From assembly GCA_019455325.1 (NCBI GenBank), contig JACFMQ010000007.1, positions 124,001 through 188,000 of the forward strand: a stretch of 64,000 nucleotides of DNA, written 5' to 3'. The notes beneath the pieces are model-generated. The model searched no databases, had not been told where the DNA came from, and saw only the letters and a program-made list of their open reading frames with translations. The stretch is from Rhodocyclaceae bacterium (GTDB taxonomy: Bacteria; Pseudomonadota; Gammaproteobacteria; Burkholderiales; Rhodocyclaceae). The translations under genes were made by a program, and so were the position numbers. Of the stretch, positions 3,873 to 40,809 are shown one piece after another. Position 1 is the first letter of the stretch. The number at the start of each line of letters is the position of its first letter.

Positions 3873-5644
3873 GCCGGGATTTCCATTGCGGTGCGCTGGC
3901 GCAACTGCCAGCCCTGGGCGCGTTCGTGGCTGTGCCACAGGCGCGCGTAGACGCCGCCGGCGGCCAGCAGCTCGGCGTGGCGTCCGCGTTCGGCGATGCG
4001 GCCCCGGTCGAAGACGAGGATCTGGTCGGCGTCGCGGACGGTCGCCAGGCGATGGGCGATGACGATGACGGTGCGCCCGCGCATCAGGTGGGCCAGCGCG
4101 GCGACCAGTGCCGCCTCGTTCTCCGGGTCGGCGAAGGCGGTGGCTTCGTCGAGCACGACGATGGGGCGGTCGAGCAGGATGGCGCGGGCGATGGCGATGC
4201 GCTGGCGCTGCCCGCCGGACAGGCGCGCGCCGCGTTCGCCGGCGACGCTGGCATAGCCCTGCGGCAGGGCCAGGATGAAGTCGTGCGCCTGCGCCGCGCG
4301 CGCCGCCGCTTCGATGGCCGCCTGGTCGGCGTCGGGGCGGCCGAGGCGGATGTTGTCGGCGATGCTGTCGTGGAACAGGAAGCTGTCCTGGAAGACGAAG
4401 GCCACCTGCCCCAGCAGCGCGTCCGGCGTCATCTCGCGCACGTCCGCGCCGCCCACGTACACCGCGCCGCGCGTCACGTCCCAGAAGCGCGGGATCAGCT
4501 TCGCCACCGTGCTCTTGCCCGCGCCCGAGGGGCCGACCAGCGCGGTCACGCTGCCGCTCGGCGCTTCGAAGCTGACGCCGTCGAGCGCGGCATCCGCGCG
4601 TCCGGCGTAGGCGAAGCCCACGTCGTCGAAGCGCACCGAGGCGTCCATGGGCTGTTGGGGCCGCTCCGGCAGCGCCAGCGCGGGCACGGCCAGCAGCGCC
4701 TGGATGCGCCGCGCGCTGGCGTCCGCCTTGCGGATGAAATGGGTCAGCCACATCAGCGGCATCAGGGATTCGGCCATGCCGGTGCCGAGCAGCAGCACCG
4801 CGATCCAGGCGGCGAAGCCCAGGCTGCCGTCCTGCACCCACCACAGCCCGCAGGCGCTCAGCGCCAGCAGCGTCGGCAGCGGGCCGAGCAGCACGATGCC
4901 CAGCCGCGCGCTGGTCGCCGAGGCCGCCAGCCAGCGCGACAGCACCGCGTGGAAGCCGTCCAGCGCGGCCTGGTAGCGGCTGAACGAGGAACTGCCGTCG
5001 TCGAAGCTGCGCACCACCGGCATGGCCTGGACGAACTCCACCACGGCGTTGTGGATGCGCTCGCACTCGGCGTCGTACCGGCGCTGCAGGTCGACGTGGT
5101 CGCGCAGCGCCAGGCGGATGGCCGCCGCCCCGAGCGCCAGCACGCCCAGCGCCACCAGCGCCAGCCGCCAGTCGATGAACAGCAGCAGCGCCAGCGTGAG
5201 CAGCGGCGCGGCGGTGCCGCGCCCGAGCAGCGGCGTGCTGTCGGCGACGAAGGCATGCAGGTTGTTCACGTCGTCCTGCATGACCTTGGCCAGCGCGCCC
5301 GAACCCTGGTCGACCAGATGGCCCAGCGGCAGGCCGGCCAGGTGCGCGGCCAGCTCGGTGCGCAGGTGCGCTTCCAGCGCGAAGGCGGCGAAGTGCGAGA
5401 TGCGCGCGGCCAGCGCGCGCAGGACGAAGGCGGCGACGGTGAGCGCGGCGGCCAGCCCGACCCACGGCCAGGGCCGCGGCGCCGGGTCGAGCAGGGCGTC
5501 TATGGTGAGCGCCAGCGCGGCGATGGCGCCCAGTCCGGCGGCGGCGCCCAGCGCGGCCAGGCCCATGGCCAGGCGCACGCGGCCGATCACCGGGCGCATC
5601 AGGGGCCAGATGCCGGCCGCTTGCGGTGCGGGGGAGCGTGTCAC
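3869..5644 (-). CDS. YbtP/YbtQ-like ABC transporter, fused permease-ATPase (ABC-A)
   Basis: A 591-residue permease-ATPase fusion. The membrane domain occupies roughly residues 1-310 and the ATPase follows, with Walker A GPSGAGKST, signature LSGGQ, Walker B IVVLDEATA followed by FADPENEA, and H-loop IVIAHRLA. I chose GTG 5644 as start because it overlaps the stop codon of the MATE gene as GTGA, and because the paralogue at 22280-24052 has a matching GTG start. It pairs with ABC-B through an ATGA overlap. Family knowledge (YbtPQ, IrtAB) suggests inner-membrane uptake of a ferric metallophore, though the fold is that of exporters and direction cannot be read from sequence. Confidence 0.88.
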   Translation of the reverse strand: MTRSPAPQAAGIWPLMRPVIGRVRLAMGLAALGAAAGLGAIAALALTIDALLDPAPRPWPWVGLAAALTVAAFVLRALAARISHFAAFALEAHLRTELAAHLAGLPLGHLVDQGSGALAKVMQDDVNNLHAFVADSTPLLGRGTAAPLLTLALLLFIDWRLALVALGVLALGAAAIRLALRDHVDLQRRYDAECERIHNAVVEFVQAMPVVRSFDDGSSSFSRYQAALDGFHAVLSRWLAASATSARLGIVLLGPLPTLLALSACGLWWVQDGSLGFAAWIAVLLLGTGMAESLMPLMWLTHFIRKADASARRIQALLAVPALALPERPQQPMDASVRFDDVGFAYAGRADAALDGVSFEAPSGSVTALVGPSGAGKSTVAKLIPRFWDVTRGAVYVGGADVREMTPDALLGQVAFVFQDSFLFHDSIADNIRLGRPDADQAAIEAAARAAQAHDFILALPQGYASVAGERGARLSGGQRQRIAIARAILLDRPIVVLDEATAFADPENEAALVAALAHLMRGRTVIVIAHRLATVRDADQILVFDRGRIAERGRHAELLAAGGVYARLWHSHERAQGWQLRQRTAMEIPA

Positions 5645-7044
5645 GATGTCTTCCAGGGGAAATGAGCGAAGCGCCGGCCGAGCCGCCACAGCAGCAGCGC
5701 GGCGGCGAGCGCGAGGCCGGCGGCGAGGGCGTACCACCAGCCGACGGTGCCCAGGGGCGCGGCCAGCCGGTCGGTGAAGCACAGCGCATGGCCGAGCGGG
5801 ATGCTGAACAGCCAATGCACCGCGGCGAGAATGACGAACGGCCCGGCCGCGTCGCCCAGGCCGCGCAGCACGAAGCCGAGCGCGATCACCAGCACGTCGA
5901 GCGCCAGCAGCCAGGCGACGATGCGCAGCAGCTCGGCGGTGGCCGCCAGCACCGCCGGATCGCGCGAATACAGCGCCGCCAGCGTGTCGGCCCGGAAGCT
6001 GGCGAGCAGCGCCAGCGGCACGGCCAGCGCCAGGCCGATGCCCAGGGTCAGGCCGATCAGGCGGCGCGCTTCCGCGCGGTCGCCGCCGCCGGCCACGCGT
6101 GCGATCAGGATGGTCGCGGCCATGGACAGGCCGGTCGGCGCCATCAGCAGGATCATCAGGACGTTGAAGGCGATCTGGTGGCTGCCGATCGCCGCCGCCC
6201 CCAGGGTGGCGATGAAGATCGCCACCACCGCCATGACCAGGTAGTCGGAGAGGAAGTTGAAGGCGATCGGCAGGCCGCCGGTGCAGAAGCGCAGCAGCGC
6301 CCGCCCGCCCAGATCGGCGGCGGCCAGCGGCCCCTGCCACGCGCCGCGCAGGCGCGGATGGCGCAGCGCCAGCGCGGCCATGACCAGGCCGGTGGCCCAG
6401 AACGCCACCAGCGTGGACACGCCGAAGCCGCTCACGCCCAGCGGCGTTGCGCCGAAATGGCCGAACACGAAGGCGAGGTTGCACAGCACCTTCAGCGCCA
6501 CGCCGAGCACGATGGTGGCGGTGACCGGCATGGGCGCGCCGTAGGCTTCGACGAGAAAGCGCATGGCGAGGAACAGCCCCATGCCGGGCAGGCCGAAGGC
6601 GACCAGGCGCACGTAGTCGCCGGCGTCCGGAATGAGCGCGGGATCGACGCCGGCCGCGCGGAACAGCGGCACGGCCAGCGCAGCCATCGCCGCGCCGAGC
6701 AGCGCGCCGCCGCCGAGGCCGACCGCCAGCCCGCGCGCCACCGTCGCGCGCACCGCGTGCTCGCGGCCCTCGCCGCGCAGGCGGCCGATGGCGGGGATGA
6801 GCGCGTACAGCAGGCCGAGCAGGAAGATCATGACCGGCGTCCATACGGCCGCGCCGGTGGCCACGGCGCCGAGCGCGGCGGTGTCGAGGCGCCCGGCCAT
6901 GAGCACGTCGACCACCGCGCTGCCCATCTGCGCCAGTTGCGACAGCACGATGGGGGCGGACAGGTGCAGCAGCGCGCCGGCGCTGTCGCCCAGCCGGTGC
7001 GCGGGGAGCGCGCCGGCGGATGACGGAATGGACGTCATCGGCAT
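5641..7044 (-). CDS. MATE family efflux transporter
   Basis: A 467-residue, about 12-helix membrane protein with the MATE hallmark stretch LAQMGSAVVDVLMAGRLDT near the N-terminus and the internal repeat of the family in its second half. MATE proteins export organic cations and secondary metabolites using Na+ or H+ gradients. The gene starts 6 bases after the receptor stop codon and ends in a GTGA overlap with ABC-A, so it is a true member of the operon. That position, between an outer-membrane receptor and a YbtPQ-like pair, suggests it secretes the apo-metallophore or a related compound; this is inference. ATG 7038 is an alternative start two codons downstream. Confidence 0.88.
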   Translation of the reverse strand: MPMTSIPSSAGALPAHRLGDSAGALLHLSAPIVLSQLAQMGSAVVDVLMAGRLDTAALGAVATGAAVWTPVMIFLLGLLYALIPAIGRLRGEGREHAVRATVARGLAVGLGGGALLGAAMAALAVPLFRAAGVDPALIPDAGDYVRLVAFGLPGMGLFLAMRFLVEAYGAPMPVTATIVLGVALKVLCNLAFVFGHFGATPLGVSGFGVSTLVAFWATGLVMAALALRHPRLRGAWQGPLAAADLGGRALLRFCTGGLPIAFNFLSDYLVMAVVAIFIATLGAAAIGSHQIAFNVLMILLMAPTGLSMAATILIARVAGGGDRAEARRLIGLTLGIGLALAVPLALLASFRADTLAALYSRDPAVLAATAELLRIVAWLLALDVLVIALGFVLRGLGDAAGPFVILAAVHWLFSIPLGHALCFTDRLAAPLGTVGWWYALAAGLALAAALLLWRLGRRFAHFPWKTS

Positions 7045-35778: not shown

Positions 35779-35904
35779 GGCGGGTTTCCGAAAAAGCATG
35801 GAGAGTGTCGGCGGCCGGCGCTTGCGGCCGCCCCGGTGTGCGCACGTGCGATGCCCTGTCGTCGAAGTCCCCCCGGCACCTTGCGGAATGTGAGCGCGGT
35901 GGAT

Positions 35905-35962
35905 GATAATTATTCCCATTTGTTCCGCCACCCGAATCGGGTCGATCACGACCCGATTCGGT
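35905..35962 (-). promoter_or_regulatory. Composite Fur-box/AraC operator, copy 2
   Basis: GATAATTATTCCCATTTG (Fur-box-like) followed by the best palindrome of the set: CCCGAATCGGGTCG, centre ATCA, then CGACCCGATTCGGT, 13 of 14 positions matching as an inverted repeat. It lies between divergent receptor 3 (start 35778) and AraC 3 (start 35987). Fur-like half faces the receptor. Confidence 0.8.
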
Positions 35963-35986
35963 CATCGGACCGGCAGGGGGACGCGC

Positions 35987-36910
35987 ATGTCATCGACCAT
36001 CGGAACGGATTCTTCCGCGGAAATCGCGGCGTCGGAGCTGATCGCCGACGTCTCGCGCCTCGTCCGCGGGCCGGGCGACGAATCCCGGCTGACGCAGGTG
36101 GCGCTGCAGGACGGCGTCGAGCTGCTGCTCTGGCGCGGCCACTTCGCGCAGCCCCTGGAGACGTGCCTGCGCGACGACAGCGACCGCGTCCATTTCACCT
36201 ATGTGCTGGAGGGCAAGGCGGCGTGCGAGATCCGTCGGCACTGCCGCTGCCAGCTCTGGGAAGCCGGTGCGGCGGCCGGCATCATCCATTTCGGGCCGGA
36301 GCGCCGCGGCCGCTTCCTGCAGCAGGGCAGCTACGCCAGCGTCGCGGTGATGATGCGGCCGGACGTGTTCGCGGCCTGGGGCGATGCGGTCGACCCGGAG
36401 CTGCGCCGTTCGGTGCGCGACGGCTGGTGCTTCGCCGGCGATTGCCGCGGCGCCGAGCTGCACGCGACGGCGCAGTTGCTCTGCCGCGCCCTGCCGGAGG
36501 CTTCGGAGCGCAATCGCATGTGGCTGAAGGGGCAGGGTCTGGCGCTGTGCGGGCTGCTGCTGGAAAGCCGGTCGGCGCCGACGCAGCGGGTCGGCGTCGC
36601 CGACCGGGCGAAGCTGCTGCGCGCCCGCGACCTGCTGCTCGCCGATCTCTCGCTGGCGCCGACCCTGACCGAACTGGCGGCGTACAGCGGTCTCAGCCTG
36701 CTCAAGCTCAAGCGCGGCTTCCGGGCGCTGTTCGGCAACAGCGTCTACGGGCTGTTCATGCAGGAACGTATGCACGAGGCCCGCCGGCGCCTGCTGAGCG
36801 GCGCCGGCTCCGTGACCGAGGTGGCGACCGACCTCGGCTATGCGAACGTCAGCCACTTCGCGGCGGCGTTCCGCAAGCGGTTCGGTGTTAATCCGGCGTC
36901 GCTGAAGTGA
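35987..36910 (+). CDS. AraC-family regulator 3 (PchR-like)
   Basis: 307 residues from ATG 35987, preceded by AGGGGG at suitable spacing; an upstream in-frame ATG (35903) lies inside the Fur-like box and is rejected. The N-terminal ligand-sensing region precedes a typical AraC domain: LAAYSGLSLLKLKRGFRALFG, then VATDLGYANVSHFAAAFRKRFGVNPASLK. It is nearly identical in this last part to AraC 4 and to the pseudogene at 40288-40739. It most likely binds the palindrome repeated beside all three, activating receptor 3 and others when the ferric ligand is present. Confidence 0.9.
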   Translation: MSSTIGTDSSAEIAASELIADVSRLVRGPGDESRLTQVALQDGVELLLWRGHFAQPLETCLRDDSDRVHFTYVLEGKAACEIRRHCRCQLWEAGAAAGIIHFGPERRGRFLQQGSYASVAVMMRPDVFAAWGDAVDPELRRSVRDGWCFAGDCRGAELHATAQLLCRALPEASERNRMWLKGQGLALCGLLLESRSAPTQRVGVADRAKLLRARDLLLADLSLAPTLTELAAYSGLSLLKLKRGFRALFGNSVYGLFMQERMHEARRRLLSGAGSVTEVATDLGYANVSHFAAAFRKRFGVNPASLK

Positions 36911-37020
36911 GCCGGCGGCTGCCGCGGGTTGCGATAGCGGAAAACGATGGCTGTGCTCAGGATGCTGTCGAGGATTGGAACGAGCATGGGTATGCTGGAG
37001 CCGGCGGCTCCGTGCATGAT

Positions 37021-37710
37021 TCAGTGTGTTGTAGGACGGAATACCAACTGTTCTACCGCATTGGCACCTTGGCGACGTGGTGTTTTAGTGAAGAAATTTT
37101 CTACTGAGTGGATACCTGCTTTGGCTGGCAGTACTGCCAGGAATTTGCCTGACAGCCCCGTATCAGTTTTCTTCCCGCGTGTTTGCCACATACTCAGGAA
37201 CTGCTCGCGGCTGTAGGTACGATTGCCAAGGCTCGGGTCGGCCAACCATACTGCCTCGTTACTGATGCCGCGCAGTACGGAAAAGTGATCGTCTTGGCGA
37301 TGGTTTACATAGACAACGACAGGTATCTTGAGCTTGCTCAATTGCGCCCAACTGGCGGCAAACCCTTGGGCTTTGAAGCCGAACTGCGGCAGGGCACGCG
37401 CCATGTCGTCGAAACTGGCGCGGCCGTCGCCTTTGTCCATGGCCTTGAGCAAGGCCTCCTCGGTTACATCCTGACCATAGTAGGCATTGAGCAAGGTGGC
37501 CAGCGACGCCGCGCCGCAGGAGTAGTCAAGGTCTTGCTTGACGATGCGCGCATCGCGCAGGGTCTTCCAGCTCTTGATCGCCACCTGAAATGTGGCGCTG
37601 TGGGTGACAACCCATGCACTCTCGCCGACGCTGCCTTCAGCGGCGTGGGCGCTATGTCCCAGAATGATTGGCAAGATCGCAGCAAGCAGTACGGGAGCCC
37701 ACTTACTCAC
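37021..37710 (-). CDS. Periplasmic C39-family (double-glycine) peptidase
   Basis: 229 residues from GTG 37710, which overlaps the previous stop as GTGA. A signal peptide (LLAAILPIILGHSAHA) implies export, unlike the usual cytoplasmic C39 domains of bacteriocin ABC exporters. Catalytic elements of the family are visible: Cys in QDLDYSCGAASLATLL, His in RQDDHFSVLRG and Asp in WLADPSLGNRTY. Stand-alone secreted C39 proteins include FapD of functional-amyloid systems. The likely substrate is the precursor at 38691-39011, which has a Gly-ending leader. The last about 36 residues (from LPAKAGIHS) read like a translated dispersed repeat and may be a tail added by repeat insertion. Confidence 0.85.
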   Translation of the reverse strand: MSKWAPVLLAAILPIILGHSAHAAEGSVGESAWVVTHSATFQVAIKSWKTLRDARIVKQDLDYSCGAASLATLLNAYYGQDVTEEALLKAMDKGDGRASFDDMARALPQFGFKAQGFAASWAQLSKLKIPVVVYVNHRQDDHFSVLRGISNEAVWLADPSLGNRTYSREQFLSMWQTRGKKTDTGLSGKFLAVLPAKAGIHSVENFFTKTPRRQGANAVEQLVFRPTTH

Positions 37711-38285
37711 CTTACCCCCAGCGGTGCGCCGGATTCCGAGATCGGAACCACGCCCAGCACGGCCATGACGATACCGCCCAAGGCAAATATGACACCAGAG
37801 GTAAGCATTGCGGGAATCAGGCCGATAATGATGCCAGCTATGCTATAGCCGAGGCTCGCCTTCGGAATCGCCCCGGATAGGGCATTACCTCCGACCCACA
37901 CTGCGTATAGCCAAAGCGGCAGGGTCAGCAGTGGCGTCACTCCCAAGGCCACTGTGCCTATGCCGAGGAAATTTGCCACCAGCCAGGAAGCCGCCAACAG
38001 GTTGAACAGATCGCCTTGTCCATTCCAACGGGCGCTGCGCTTCATCCACCAGCGAAGGATGCCCATGGTGACGAGGAAAACTGCCCACACCGACAGTACC
38101 GTTACCGGGATGAGTAACCATAGTGGCATGGTGGGCATTTCAGTAGCACCCACTCTCATGATGGAACCAAAGCCGCCTAGAAAACCAATTAGCGTGATAG
38201 CCAGTGCAGATTGCCAACGTGGAAATGTGAATCGTTCGAAAGGCTGTTGTCGGAGTGTGAATAGTGAAAATGCAGTTGTAAGCAT
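37707..38285 (-). CDS. Multi-helix inner-membrane protein of the peptide island
   Basis: 192 residues with about five hydrophobic segments: ALAITLIGFLGGFGSIM, LWLLIPVTVLSVWAVFLV, a pair around LLAASWLVANFLGIGTVALG and LLTLPLWLYAVWVGG, and IAGIIIGLIPAMLTSGVIF with a final AVLGVVPI. The layout recalls Yip1-like proteins but I cannot assign it. It is coupled to the C39 gene by a GTGA overlap. It could anchor the processing machinery or give immunity to the peptide. GC content is clearly lower than in the flanking receptor genes. Confidence 0.75.
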   Translation of the reverse strand: MLTTAFSLFTLRQQPFERFTFPRWQSALAITLIGFLGGFGSIMRVGATEMPTMPLWLLIPVTVLSVWAVFLVTMGILRWWMKRSARWNGQGDLFNLLAASWLVANFLGIGTVALGVTPLLTLPLWLYAVWVGGNALSGAIPKASLGYSIAGIIIGLIPAMLTSGVIFALGGIVMAVLGVVPISESGAPLGVR

Positions 38286-38478
38286 GGGTTGTTCCTTTGT
38301 AAAAGGAGGCTAATCTGACAAAATCGGCTCCTGTCTATTGGCCCGGTTCAATGGGCGAGCAAGATGATCACGGCCGACACGAAGTAACCAAGCTAGTGAG
38401 GTAGTGATTGGTATCGACTCAAGAACTGAATGAATGGCTGTCAGGCAGTGCGTATTATTTTGCCCTCCGCATTGCCCA

Positions 38479-38613
38479 TCAATACCAATCCAGCACCCAA
38501 CCCAGAAACCCGAGGCCTAGAATCGTGATTTCTGCTACGGTTAGCCAGAATATCGTGTTGCCCATGGGGCCATCGCTAGTCTTTTCGGCTCTGTTGTTAT
38601 TGAATTTTTTCAT
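38479..38613 (-). CDS. 44-residue single-helix membrane protein
   Basis: A short frame on the minus strand: MKKFNNNRAEKTSDGPMG followed by a hydrophobic stretch NTIFWLTVAEITILGLGFLG and a short tail ending DWY. The charged start and single transmembrane segment are protein-like, and it lies between the precursor and the membrane protein on the same strand. The ribosome-binding sequence upstream (CTGGAGTCAGGTT) contains GGAG at slightly long distance. It may be an immunity peptide, a second exported peptide or a complex subunit. No homologue is recognised. Confidence 0.55.
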   Translation of the reverse strand: MKKFNNNRAEKTSDGPMGNTIFWLTVAEITILGLGFLGWVLDWY

Positions 38614-38632
38614 AACCTGACTCCAGTTACAG

Positions 38633-38656
38633 GCAGGCAGGGGATCCCCTGCCTGC
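38633..38656. terminator. 24-bp perfect palindrome between precursor and downstream genes
   Basis: A 12-bp self-complementary arm, GCAGGCAGGGGA then TCCCCTGCCTGC, lies 35 bases after the precursor stop and 20 bases before the 44-residue gene on the minus strand. It could act as a leaky terminator giving more precursor than processing enzyme, a common arrangement in bacteriocin operons. Confidence 0.55.
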
Positions 38657-38690
38657 TACTGCCGTTGCTATCAATCACTAATCTTGGCTT

Positions 38691-39011
38691 CTATTTGTAA
38701 AGAATGGAATTAATCGTGGACCCAAGCCGAGGTGCTGCGTTGTATCCCCACATGGCGGCTGCAGTCATCTGTGGTCCATACAGGTAGAAAAGCCAAACCC
38801 AAGCTCCTTCTGTTTCTTTCATTTCATCGGTAGACAGCGTGGCCAGTTGCATGTGCTTGTCTGAGGCTTCGAATAGCGTATACACGTCTGCTTGGGTGAA
38901 GCTGGGAGTGAGCTGGCCAGATGCTTGGAGTTTTCCATCGCTGGCATATGCCTGTGTAGATATAATGCTGCCGGTAGCCGCCAAGACGAAAAAGATGTGT
39001 TTCAATGACAT
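38691..39011 (-). CDS. Secreted peptide precursor with double-glycine-like leader
   Basis: 106 residues from ATG 39011, which has AAGGAG at 8-base spacing. It starts with a Sec signal peptide (HIFFVLAATGSIISTQAYA). The middle then looks like a bacteriocin leader: LATLSTDEMKETEGA has the L..(D/E)EM....G(G/A) pattern recognised by C39 peptidases. Cleavage after EGA or EG would free a hydrophobic, aromatic, glycine-containing peptide of about 36 residues (WVWLFYLYGPQMTAAAMWGY onward). A precursor with both a Sec signal and a double-glycine-like leader is unusual and fits the periplasmic C39 peptidase encoded nearby. The function is unknown: bacteriocin, signal or amyloid subunit are options. Confidence 0.65.
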   Translation of the reverse strand: MSLKHIFFVLAATGSIISTQAYASDGKLQASGQLTPSFTQADVYTLFEASDKHMQLATLSTDEMKETEGAWVWLFYLYGPQMTAAAMWGYNAAPRLGSTINSILYK

Positions 39012-39073
39012 GATGTGGACTCCTTGTGTTTCACCAAAACAACAATAAAGCCTCGATAGGCTCCGAGGCACCT

Positions 39074-39099
39074 TTTGGCGGTGCGCTACCACCGCCAAA
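39074..39099. other. Stem-loop upstream of the precursor gene
   Basis: TTTGGCGGTG pairs with CACCGCCAAA across a 6-nt loop in the gap between the barrel gene and the precursor. It has no adjacent T-run on the minus strand. It may protect or separate transcripts. Confidence 0.5.
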
Positions 39100-39166
39100 T
39101 TTTGCGCGGATCGGGCTTGTTGCCCGTTCCGCCCATTTTTTTCTCGCCTGACGGCCTTGAATATGC

Positions 39167-40042
39167 TCAGAATGTATAAAGCCAGTTCATTCTGAACTCC
39201 GTCCCATTACTACCTGAGGTATTGGCCTTAAAGGTTGCATTGAGGGTGTTGCCTTTGTCGAAGCCGTATCCCGCACCAAGGATCAGATCTGTTGCTGTAC
39301 GGGCAATACTCAGGGCTTTGCCGTCAATTTTGTCGGCCGTGCGTCGTGTCCACTGAATTCCTGTGGTGAGTGTTACTCGGTCGTTTACCGCGAAGCCAAC
39401 CAAAGGGTTGATGAGGATCAGGTTGCTTGGTTGGTAATCCATGTCGCCGTCCTTACGGCGCTGGTTGAAACGATAGCCAGCAGTCAGTGAGAAAACGATA
39501 GGGTCGATGGCTTTGTATGTGGTTATTCCCAGCATGGCGGATTTGAAGCTTATGCTGTCGCTGCGGTGTTTTTCGCTCAAGGCGATTTCGGTAAAACCCA
39601 GTAGCGCGGGTGTGTGATCATCCTCCTTGAACTGGTAGTTGATGCCTATCCAGGCATCGGCGAAGCGGGAATCGCTGTTCGATGACGTGCCCGAGACGCC
39701 GCTGCTACGCTGGCGGGATGATAGGCCGCTCAATCGCGCATATACCTCGGCCTTGGCGGCAAGCCCGTAACGCAGCCCCAGTGTTCCTACGAAAGCATCG
39801 CTGTTGCCGATGCTTTCGCCGATTGCCGTCGGTAAGGTAACAAAGGAGGTCGGGCCGGTTTGTACGGTGATGGGGGTGCCAATGGAAATACCCTCCCGGT
39901 CCACATTGGCGTAGGCAAAAGACAGATCGAGCTTGATTTTGCCTTTGTCGGTCATGAGATTCTCGACAGTGAGCGGCAAGTCGGCCCAAACCTGTGTAAC
40001 TGCCACCAAGAGGAAGGCAGGAATAAAGCAATGAGTTCGCAT
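39167..40042 (-). CDS. Outer-membrane beta-barrel protein (PF13557/FapF-barrel-like)
   Basis: 291 residues from ATG 40042 (AAGGA 6 bases upstream); GTG 40063 is a poorer alternative. A signal peptide (AFLLVAVTQVWA) is followed by LPLTVENLMTDKGKIKLDLS and then alternating amphipathic strands (FVGTLGLRYGLAAKAEVYARL, LVGFAVNDRVTLTTGIQW), ending NWLYTF with a C-terminal Phe, typical of outer-membrane barrels. It resembles the 'transporter' barrels of the phenol-degradation/FapF type. As first gene of the peptide operon it is the likely exit pore. Its promoter faces the composite Fur/AraC element at 40209-40266. Confidence 0.78.
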   Translation of the reverse strand: MRTHCFIPAFLLVAVTQVWADLPLTVENLMTDKGKIKLDLSFAYANVDREGISIGTPITVQTGPTSFVTLPTAIGESIGNSDAFVGTLGLRYGLAAKAEVYARLSGLSSRQRSSGVSGTSSNSDSRFADAWIGINYQFKEDDHTPALLGFTEIALSEKHRSDSISFKSAMLGITTYKAIDPIVFSLTAGYRFNQRRKDGDMDYQPSNLILINPLVGFAVNDRVTLTTGIQWTRRTADKIDGKALSIARTATDLILGAGYGFDKGNTLNATFKANTSGSNGTEFRMNWLYTF

Positions 40043-40208
40043 GAAATTCCTTGTGTACAGCACGACTTTTCACCGCGGAGTGTTTGTCTAGCTGGCTACT
40101 TTTGTTGAAGTTTTCGTTTTTCAGCCCTTTTATATGGCGAATGATTTTTGAATTTTCGAACGATTCGCTCTAGGTTTTATGACGTTGTTCAATGCAATAC
40201 GGCTTAAT

Positions 40209-40266
40209 GATAATTGTTCCTGTTTGCTCAGCTACCCGAATCGGTTCGGTTAGCACCCGATTCGGT
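40209..40266 (-). promoter_or_regulatory. Composite Fur-box/AraC operator, copy 3
   Basis: GATAATTGTTCCTGTTTG followed at the same offset by TACCCGAATCGGTTCGG and ACCCGATTCGGT. It sits in front of the regulator pseudogene, and its Fur-like half faces the barrel/peptide operon, whose first start is 167 bases away. In the other copies this position belongs to a receptor or transporter operon. Confidence 0.75.
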
Positions 40267-40287
40267 ATCCGTGTCGGAGGAATGGGC

Positions 40288-40739
40288 ATGGCGCCATCCT
40301 TCCCGGGCCGAAATGCTGCGATCGGTTCCGGTAGCAGGGCAGCTACGTGAGCGTGTCGGTGAACATGTGGCCGGATGTGTTCGCGGTCTGGGGCGATGTG
40401 GTCGCCCCGGAACTGTGCCGTTCGGTGCGCGACGGCTAGTTGTGCTTCGCCGGGGATTGCTGTGGCGCCGAGCTGTATGCAACGGTGCAGTCGCTCAGCC
40501 GCACCCTGCCGGAGGCACCGGAGCGCAATCGCATGTGGTTGAGACTGAAGGGGCTGGGCCTAGCGCTGGCGGCTTTACGGCTGTTCATGCAGGAGCGCAT
40601 GCACGAGGCCCGCCGGCGCCTGCTGAGCGGCGCCGGCTCCGTCACCGAGGTGGCAACCGACCTCGGCTATGCGAACGTCAGCCACTTCGCGGCGGCGTTC
40701 CGCAAGCGCTTCGGCGTCAATCCTGCGTCGCTGAAGTGA
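40288..40739 (+). pseudogene. AraC-family regulator pseudogene (copy of AraC 3)
   Basis: The sequence follows AraC 3 but lacks much of the sensing domain and the first part of the DNA-binding domain, and carries an in-frame TAG near 40437. The 3' part (about 40585-40739) still reads MQERMHEARRRLLSGAGSVT through FGVNPASLK, almost identical to AraC 3. The similarity continues past the stop (CCGGCGGCTGCCGCGGG, then CAGGATGCTGTCG), so it is a duplicate of the whole regulator unit. No functional AraC protein can be made. Confidence 0.88.
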
Positions 40740-40809
40740 TCCGGCGGCTGCCGCGGGTGCGGCGGCAGGAGGCGGCGACCGTGCCCGGCAGGATGCTGTC
40801 GGCCAGGGA

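Follow-up and report, generated by a model that had tools for sequence, protein, structure and literature searches.

Positions 37021–40042 of a 64,000-nucleotide stretch of a Rhodocyclaceae bacterium genome (contig JACFMQ010000007.1; the whole stretch is hereafter the window) carry five intact open genes on the minus strand, which probably constitute an export locus of the haemocin/Nap type for one small bacteriocin-like peptide. These genes encode an outer-membrane β-barrel, a bipartite peptide precursor, a 44-residue one-helix protein, a 192-residue membrane protein and a secreted C39 peptidase, and the last two overlap by four bases (GTGA). This set had been picked out in a sequence-only reading of the window, and all five reading frames were confirmed to be open. 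In the mechanism that we propose, the precursor would cross the inner membrane by Sec and lose its signal peptide, the periplasmic C39 peptidase would recognize a leader of the form LSxxEMxxTxGA and cut after GA, and the resulting 36-residue peptide would leave through the FapF-like barrel. The peptide would be toxic and the 44-residue protein its cognate immunity protein, and the 192-residue protein would assist in maturation or export as a lineage-specific component. As judged from sequence comparison, a locus of this kind has precedents in haemocin and in the nap island of Neisseria gonorrhoeae, and the earlier view of the system as new is not supported: periplasmic cleavage and barrel secretion were proposed for the nap island in 2025, and the haemocin locus of plasmid p250 has the same three parts. 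The window locus nevertheless carries a new peptide and a new helper protein. The apparent novelty otherwise lies in how broad the family is, in the signal peptide before the leader as a likely answer to the inner-membrane step, in the covariation of the cargo with the gene that follows it, and in the 192-residue component.

The precursor (38691–39011, minus strand, 106 residues, matched by a leader profile) begins with a Sec signal peptide (residues 1–23, 38943–39011) that ends STQAYA and is ordinary in appearance; the signal peptides of the precursor, the barrel and the peptidase were all judged by eye and from hydropathy. It is followed by the conserved leader (residues 24–70, 38802–38942), which ends LSTDEMKETEGA (also written MQLATLSTDEMKETEGA), leaving a predicted mature peptide of 36 aromatic-rich residues with a net charge of +2 (38694–38801, from the translation and comparison of cores). 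The canonical double-glycine leader of class II bacteriocins and microcins has the consensus LSxxELxxIxGG, and the leader of the window precursor agrees with it in register. In contrast to class II peptides exported by ATP-binding cassette (ABC) transporters, a signal peptide stands before the leader, the C39 peptidase is a separate secreted protein, and no fused C39/ABC exporter was detected in the same genome. In 62 precursors that could be placed in register, the conserved leader columns were Leu at −12 (60), Ser at −11 (58), Glu at −8 (61), Met at −7 (62), Thr at −4 (62), Gly at −2 (62) and Ala at −1 (50), of which columns −8, −7 and −2 are not free counts because the register pattern required Glu or Asp at −8, Met, Leu or Ile at −7 and Gly at −2. 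Five hits without the motif were left out of this set, four of them truncated or partial and the fifth (locus L078) with Gln at −8 and Ile at −4. Outside the 62, the residue at −4 is Ile in L078, L142 and L144, Ala in L147 and Val in haemocin. The proposed combination of a Sec-type signal with a double-glycine-like leader is supported, and the leader is widely conserved.

The C39 peptidase (37021–37710, minus strand, 229 residues from a GTG start) has a signal peptide and matches PF03412 with an E-value of 3.1e-24 (85.8 bits versus a cut-off of 22), in agreement with its earlier description as a secreted C39 protein. Residues C65, H142 and D158 are identical across five aligned sequences, that of the window included. 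Because this protein is the sole PF03412 match at E ≤ 0.001 in its own genome, no fused C39/ABC exporter able to cut the leader in the cytoplasm was detected by that search. The closest NCBIfam models were FapD and FilB, and the window protein fell far below the cut-off of both, with 90.7 bits versus the FapD equivalog cut-off of 330 and 78.4 bits versus the FilB cut-off of 475; the latter score speaks against an assignment to the Fil putative pilus system. The best of the FapD-like sequences tested, L088, scored 284 bits and was likewise under the FapD cut-off. In a quick C39 tree with a midpoint root, 59 of the 74 sequences, including that of the window, were grouped together with a Shimodaira–Hasegawa-like approximate likelihood-ratio support (SH-aLRT) of 98. 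This group comprises the window, Neisseria, Acinetobacter, four Helicobacter sequences and many beta- and gammaproteobacteria, and the FapD-like sequences L087, L088, L092 and L093 fall apart from it. The tree left out 13 loci for which trimming to the cysteine motif failed, and it contains several long branches.

The barrel (39167–40042, minus strand, 291 residues from an ATG start, for which the open reading frame listing also gives a longer GTG start) resembles FapF, NapF and HmcD and, by profile and by predicted fold, is a FapF homologue, as had been proposed for the exit component. A profile of 31 barrels from the family matched the FapF structures 5o67, 5o65 and 5o68 with E-values of 3.4e-11 to 1.4e-10, while the window barrel sequence alone had no match in the PDB at E-values up to 5. 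An AlphaFold2 model of the window barrel (mean predicted local distance difference test score, pLDDT, 83.9) has 12 long strands, and its 18 best Foldseek matches were all FapF chains, with template modelling (TM) scores of 0.63–0.77. The first strand of the model begins at residue 36, so that the N-terminal coiled coil described as critical in FapF could not be accommodated.

These two proteins raise the alternative that the locus is a functional amyloid or fibre system of the Fap type, in which the short aromatic peptide would be the fibre subunit. The barrel and the peptidase are homologous to FapF and FapD, and in Fap, as far as the sections consulted of PMC5557850 describe it, a secreted C39 peptidase (FapD) and a barrel (FapF) export the amyloid, so that the window shares with Fap both the secreted peptidase and the FapF barrel fold. 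We nevertheless regard this alternative as highly improbable. The peptidase is far below the FapD cut-off and lies in the 59-member group apart from L087, L088, L092 and L093, which themselves carry repeat-bearing secreted proteins (cluster 3; repeats seen by eye). In contrast, no repeat-bearing subunit like FapB or FapC was seen by eye among the five proteins of the window, nor was there a Pfam amyloid match, and the barrel is shorter than FapF with no room in its model for the coiled coil. On the absence of repeats, the FapD score and the separate tree position, a Fap operon was rejected, which upholds the same judgment in the sequence-only reading.

To define the family to which the window belongs, contigs were scanned with five C39 proteins; 111 relatives were confirmed and the best 80 loci (L numbers) were kept. 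A nap-type set of 71 loci was defined by a C39 match at E < 1e-50, with L061, L064, L076 and L077 added by hand. At least 3.5 kb of sequence upstream of C39 was available for 50 of the 71, and among these a barrel was identified at 42 loci, a precursor at 44, both at 38 and neither at two (L028 and L059). These counts include some near-identical loci, accept a barrel or precursor at whatever position it lay in the fetched sequence, and use barrel and leader profiles trained on the same loci, with the window precursor in the leader training set. The association is more than chance, as many genomes carry the barrel, the leader-bearing precursor and C39 side by side. Nine further regions from four genomes (six of them from genome G310) gave a barrel in 9/9 and a precursor in 7/9, the precursor matches having E-values of 2e-7 to 1e-3, several of them weak; in one region (L142) the barrel and precursor point away from C39. 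Four of the 13 regions found (L138, L140, L141 and L149) were left out of the nine as their contigs had already been used.

The linkage was also apparent across 369 genomes of the class, in seven of which C39 was matched at E < 1e-40 and in five of which the precursor profile gave a hit at E ≤ 0.001. A precursor match was present in four of the seven genomes with a nap-type C39 versus one of the 362 without (Fisher's exact test, 2.3e-7; 4.4e-4 when the window's own genome and one training genome were left out). In the fifth genome, which has no nap-type C39, the precursor match (E 6e-4) spans the signal-peptide part only. In this search at most ten candidates per genome were scored, and at least one precursor seen in the regions above (in G433) was missed.

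Genome G310, of the same class, has seven C39 matches at E < 1e-30 in six regions (L143–L148), with a barrel match in each and a leader match in five, four of these in open frames of 282–363 residues. C39 peptidases were also encoded on small plasmids of Campylobacter jejuni and Escherichia coli (L162 and L163), and on the Campylobacter plasmid the hypothetical protein beside C39 matches the barrel profile (E 1.8e-29, Z=1000). Proteins of cluster 2, mostly 260–314 residues long with signal-like N-termini, lie near C39 or the barrel in 13 loci (L014, L019, L020, L021, L024, L040, L058, L062, L065, L068, L069, L070 and L073; fragments in L024 and L062) and are possibly another accessory of the export route. 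Among viral_contigs, 45 pattern matches yielded no confirmed relative, and four weak matches in phage records had 27–34% identity. A phage origin was therefore unsupported by these searches, against which it should be noted that napC is reported to resemble an Inoviridae phage protein in the consulted portion of PMC11798529.

The relationship to the nap island of N. gonorrhoeae is close. As set out in the consulted portion of the 2025 PLoS Biol paper (PMC11798529), the island comprises napR, napABC, napI, napH, napP and napF, and periplasmic cleavage by NapP followed by secretion through NapF was proposed. The gonococcal C39 peptidase that we found by tblastn fits the published description of napP, as far as that portion gives it, and has 51% identity to the window peptidase overall by alignment and 56% over 181 residues by tblastn; a gonococcal barrel piece, still open in the fetched record, has 39% identity to the window barrel over 158 residues. 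Like the window precursor, those of Neisseria bergeri (L050) and N. viridiae (L051) have a signal peptide and a leader, here with the motif EMKETEGA. Unlike the nap island, the window has a single precursor with an unrelated aromatic core and the 192-residue protein, of which the fetched Neisseria loci yielded no relative by phmmer, whereas the Neisseria accessory clusters 7, 9 and 13 have no counterpart at the window. The leader profile identified no precursor in the gonococcal stretch L007. The same source suggests NapH for the inner-membrane step, and the whole words "Sec" and "signal peptide" are absent from its main text; on the basis of the precursor sequences, an ordinary Sec signal may be the answer to how the Naps cross the inner membrane. 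In two N. gonorrhoeae records, places that match the barrel across 94% of its length (NZ_CP119142.1, 171135–171953; NZ_CP119140.1, 172000–172818) lie away from the C39 place at ~495 kb, each record having three C39 places.

A second relative, found by a barrel search, is the haemocin locus of Avibacterium paragallinarum plasmid p250 (NC_005245.1), with the order HmcD, C39 peptidase, AAA ATPase, hemocin structural protein and hemocin immunity protein. HmcD matched the barrel profile with an hhalign probability of 98.8 (E 7e-17), its C39 peptidase is 32% identical to that of the window over 143 residues, and the hemocin precursor is a signal peptide followed by LSQKEMSEVKGG. The leader profile matched this precursor, which was outside its training set, with an E-value of 2.6e-6 (Z=1000). 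In haemocin, the immunity gene adjoins the toxin gene. The AAA-family ATPase, the different gene order, several cysteines in the core and the Val at −4 are haemocin's own; no 192-residue protein is annotated at the locus, and the C39 tree does not include its peptidase.

The cargo is hypervariable, with 66 cores of 21–200 residues (median 75), 56 of them net positive. GxxxG motifs were enriched in the cores, at 181 versus 132.5 in shuffled cores (s.d. 9.2; reached in 0 of 2,000 shuffles). The window core resembles those of L011 and L049 and, via L011, also those of L014 and L024. Searches of 56 precursors against Pfam and NCBIfam at E-values up to 0.05 gave no convincing family, the most suggestive matches being to GIY-YIG (E 0.0041, below cut-off) and to a class IIb bacteriocin model (6 of the 56, best 0.0052). 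A His-rich core common to L009, L010, L048 and L054 likewise had no convincing match, and five cargos from G310 and G238 had below-cut-off Pfam matches only.

Evidence for immunity genes came from the gene that follows the cargo. Three open frames of the 192-residue type were dropped and six near-identical groups collapsed, which kept 54 of 66 units, and among these 17 of the 20 pairs with a similar next gene also share similar cores. In 10,000 permutations the mean was 0.93, the maximum was 6 and 17 was never reached. The covarying pairs include some with C39 peptidases only 40–62% identical, for example L009 of Acinetobacter and L072 of Shewanella at 40%. Across the family, as analysed here, this covariation is the behaviour of toxin–immunity pairs. 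At the window the next gene after the cargo encodes the 44-residue one-helix protein (38479–38613, minus strand), which by its position is a candidate immunity protein, the covariation being a result for the family at large; its one detected relative is at L028. Behind the related cores of L011, L014, L024 and L049, small proteins that each have a single hydrophobic stretch were also seen by eye. At L028 itself (4889–5969; an Azoarcus record), there are four small open frames with one hydrophobic stretch (58, 49, 64 and 40 residues): three stand in tandem between the truncated precursor and C39, with the fourth immediately ahead of the precursor; this is perhaps an orphan immunity array.

A number of points weigh against the reading of the window as an export locus for a bacteriocin-like peptide. 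The residue at −1 is other than Ala in 12 of the 62 registered precursors, being Glu in six of the 12, so the cut site is uncertain. Eight of the 50 nap-type loci have no barrel in the fetched stretch, which indicates that C39 sometimes stands without one; genome-wide searches for seven of these eight (all except L077) placed a barrel elsewhere in four (one at E 5.5e-8) and found none in three, and the same search also found none for L066 and L069, which are on short contigs. The sequence-only reading had tied its case to conservation of the leader, which was found at 44 of the 50 loci, and to C39 not occurring without its partners, which stood in that both were missing at two of the 50 only and did not stand for the barrel. 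The 17 covarying pairs fall in eight cargo groups, the largest of which gives six pairs, and the shuffle ignores relatedness. The 44-residue protein has a single detected relative, which lies beside a truncated precursor (L028), and no similarity was detectable between it and the small proteins after the related cores. Finally, synthetic gonococcal Naps promote autolysis and gave no inhibition of the bacteria tested, according to the consulted portion of PMC11798529.

This last point, together with the small size of the window peptide, favours an alternative in which the secreted product would be a signal or autolysis factor directed at the producing population itself, the role put forward for the Naps, and not a weapon against others. 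We consider this rather unlikely, since the covariation of next genes with the core is better explained by immunity than by reception, some cargos reach a large size (up to 200 residues among the cores and 282–363 residues as open frames in G310), one cargo resembles a GIY-YIG nuclease, albeit below threshold, and the haemocin relative is called a bacteriocin.

If the product is bacteriocin-like, as we favour, it could be asked whether the 192-residue protein (37707–38285, minus strand) rather than the 44-residue one confers immunity, given that it is a membrane protein encoded between the cargo and C39, the usual place of an immunity gene. This appears improbable, as the gene immediately upstream of C39 encodes a relative of the 192-residue protein at 16 further loci (in some cases broken or partial), beside cores of five single-linkage groups, one of them broad, a pattern to be expected of machinery, and the genes that covary with cores differ from the 192-residue gene. 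No Pfam family was above cut-off in ten members, and a model of the window protein (pLDDT 79.9) with five long helices, a multi-helix character also apparent from hydropathy, had no PDB match at E ≤ 0.001; a Yip1-type identity was rejected on these two results. With neither family nor fold assigned, and with its recurrence at those 16 loci, the protein looks like machinery, and a helper role in maturation or export, specific to its lineage, is the best reading from sequence.

Taken together, the survey raises a broader proposition, whose prospects we judge to be evenly balanced: that a Sec signal, a C39-type leader, a periplasmic C39 peptidase and a FapF-like barrel make up a general, unrecognized secretion route that serves a polymorphic set of interbacterial toxins. 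The toxins would range in size from peptides of ~20 residues to proteins of ~300 residues, would each be paired with a dedicated immunity gene, and would have been spread by horizontal transfer through Pseudomonadota and Campylobacterota; to this route the window would add a new class of aromatic peptide and a new inner-membrane component. No description of the wider family was found among the open-access papers searched, nor does the route appear in the consulted sections of a polymorphic-toxin survey (PMC3482391). Such a route would unite three subjects, namely haemocin, the nap island of the gonococcus and the export of Fap amyloid, and suggests how peptides with leaders of the double-glycine type can mature without an ABC exporter. 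The conserved leader also offers a handle for genome mining, in that a single profile retrieves precursors whose cargo is hypervariable, and candidate immunity genes linked to them, from many environmental bacteria.

The five-gene stretch looks like an acquired island. Its G+C content is 50–61% across 37000–40499, compared to 61–76% in the flanks (500-base steps), a C39 profile match was present in its own genome only among seven genomes of the genus (several incomplete), and 3 of 61 family genomes, its own included, had a C39 match at E < 1e-50. An AraC-like regulator gene (35903–36929) and its shortened, diverged copy (40290–40758) bracket the island and share direct repeats of 180, 151 and 116 nucleotides at 95, 81 and 84% identity, and a large TonB-receptor-like open frame adjoins each copy; the regulator and receptor names were given by eye only. 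When an empty site was looked for in the six remaining genomes of this genus, the flanking regulator gene gave short matches only. Between the barrel and precursor genes, a perfect 10-base-pair inverted repeat with a six-base loop (39074–39099, by eye) has no T-run on the coding strand and is therefore perhaps an element of mRNA processing or stability.

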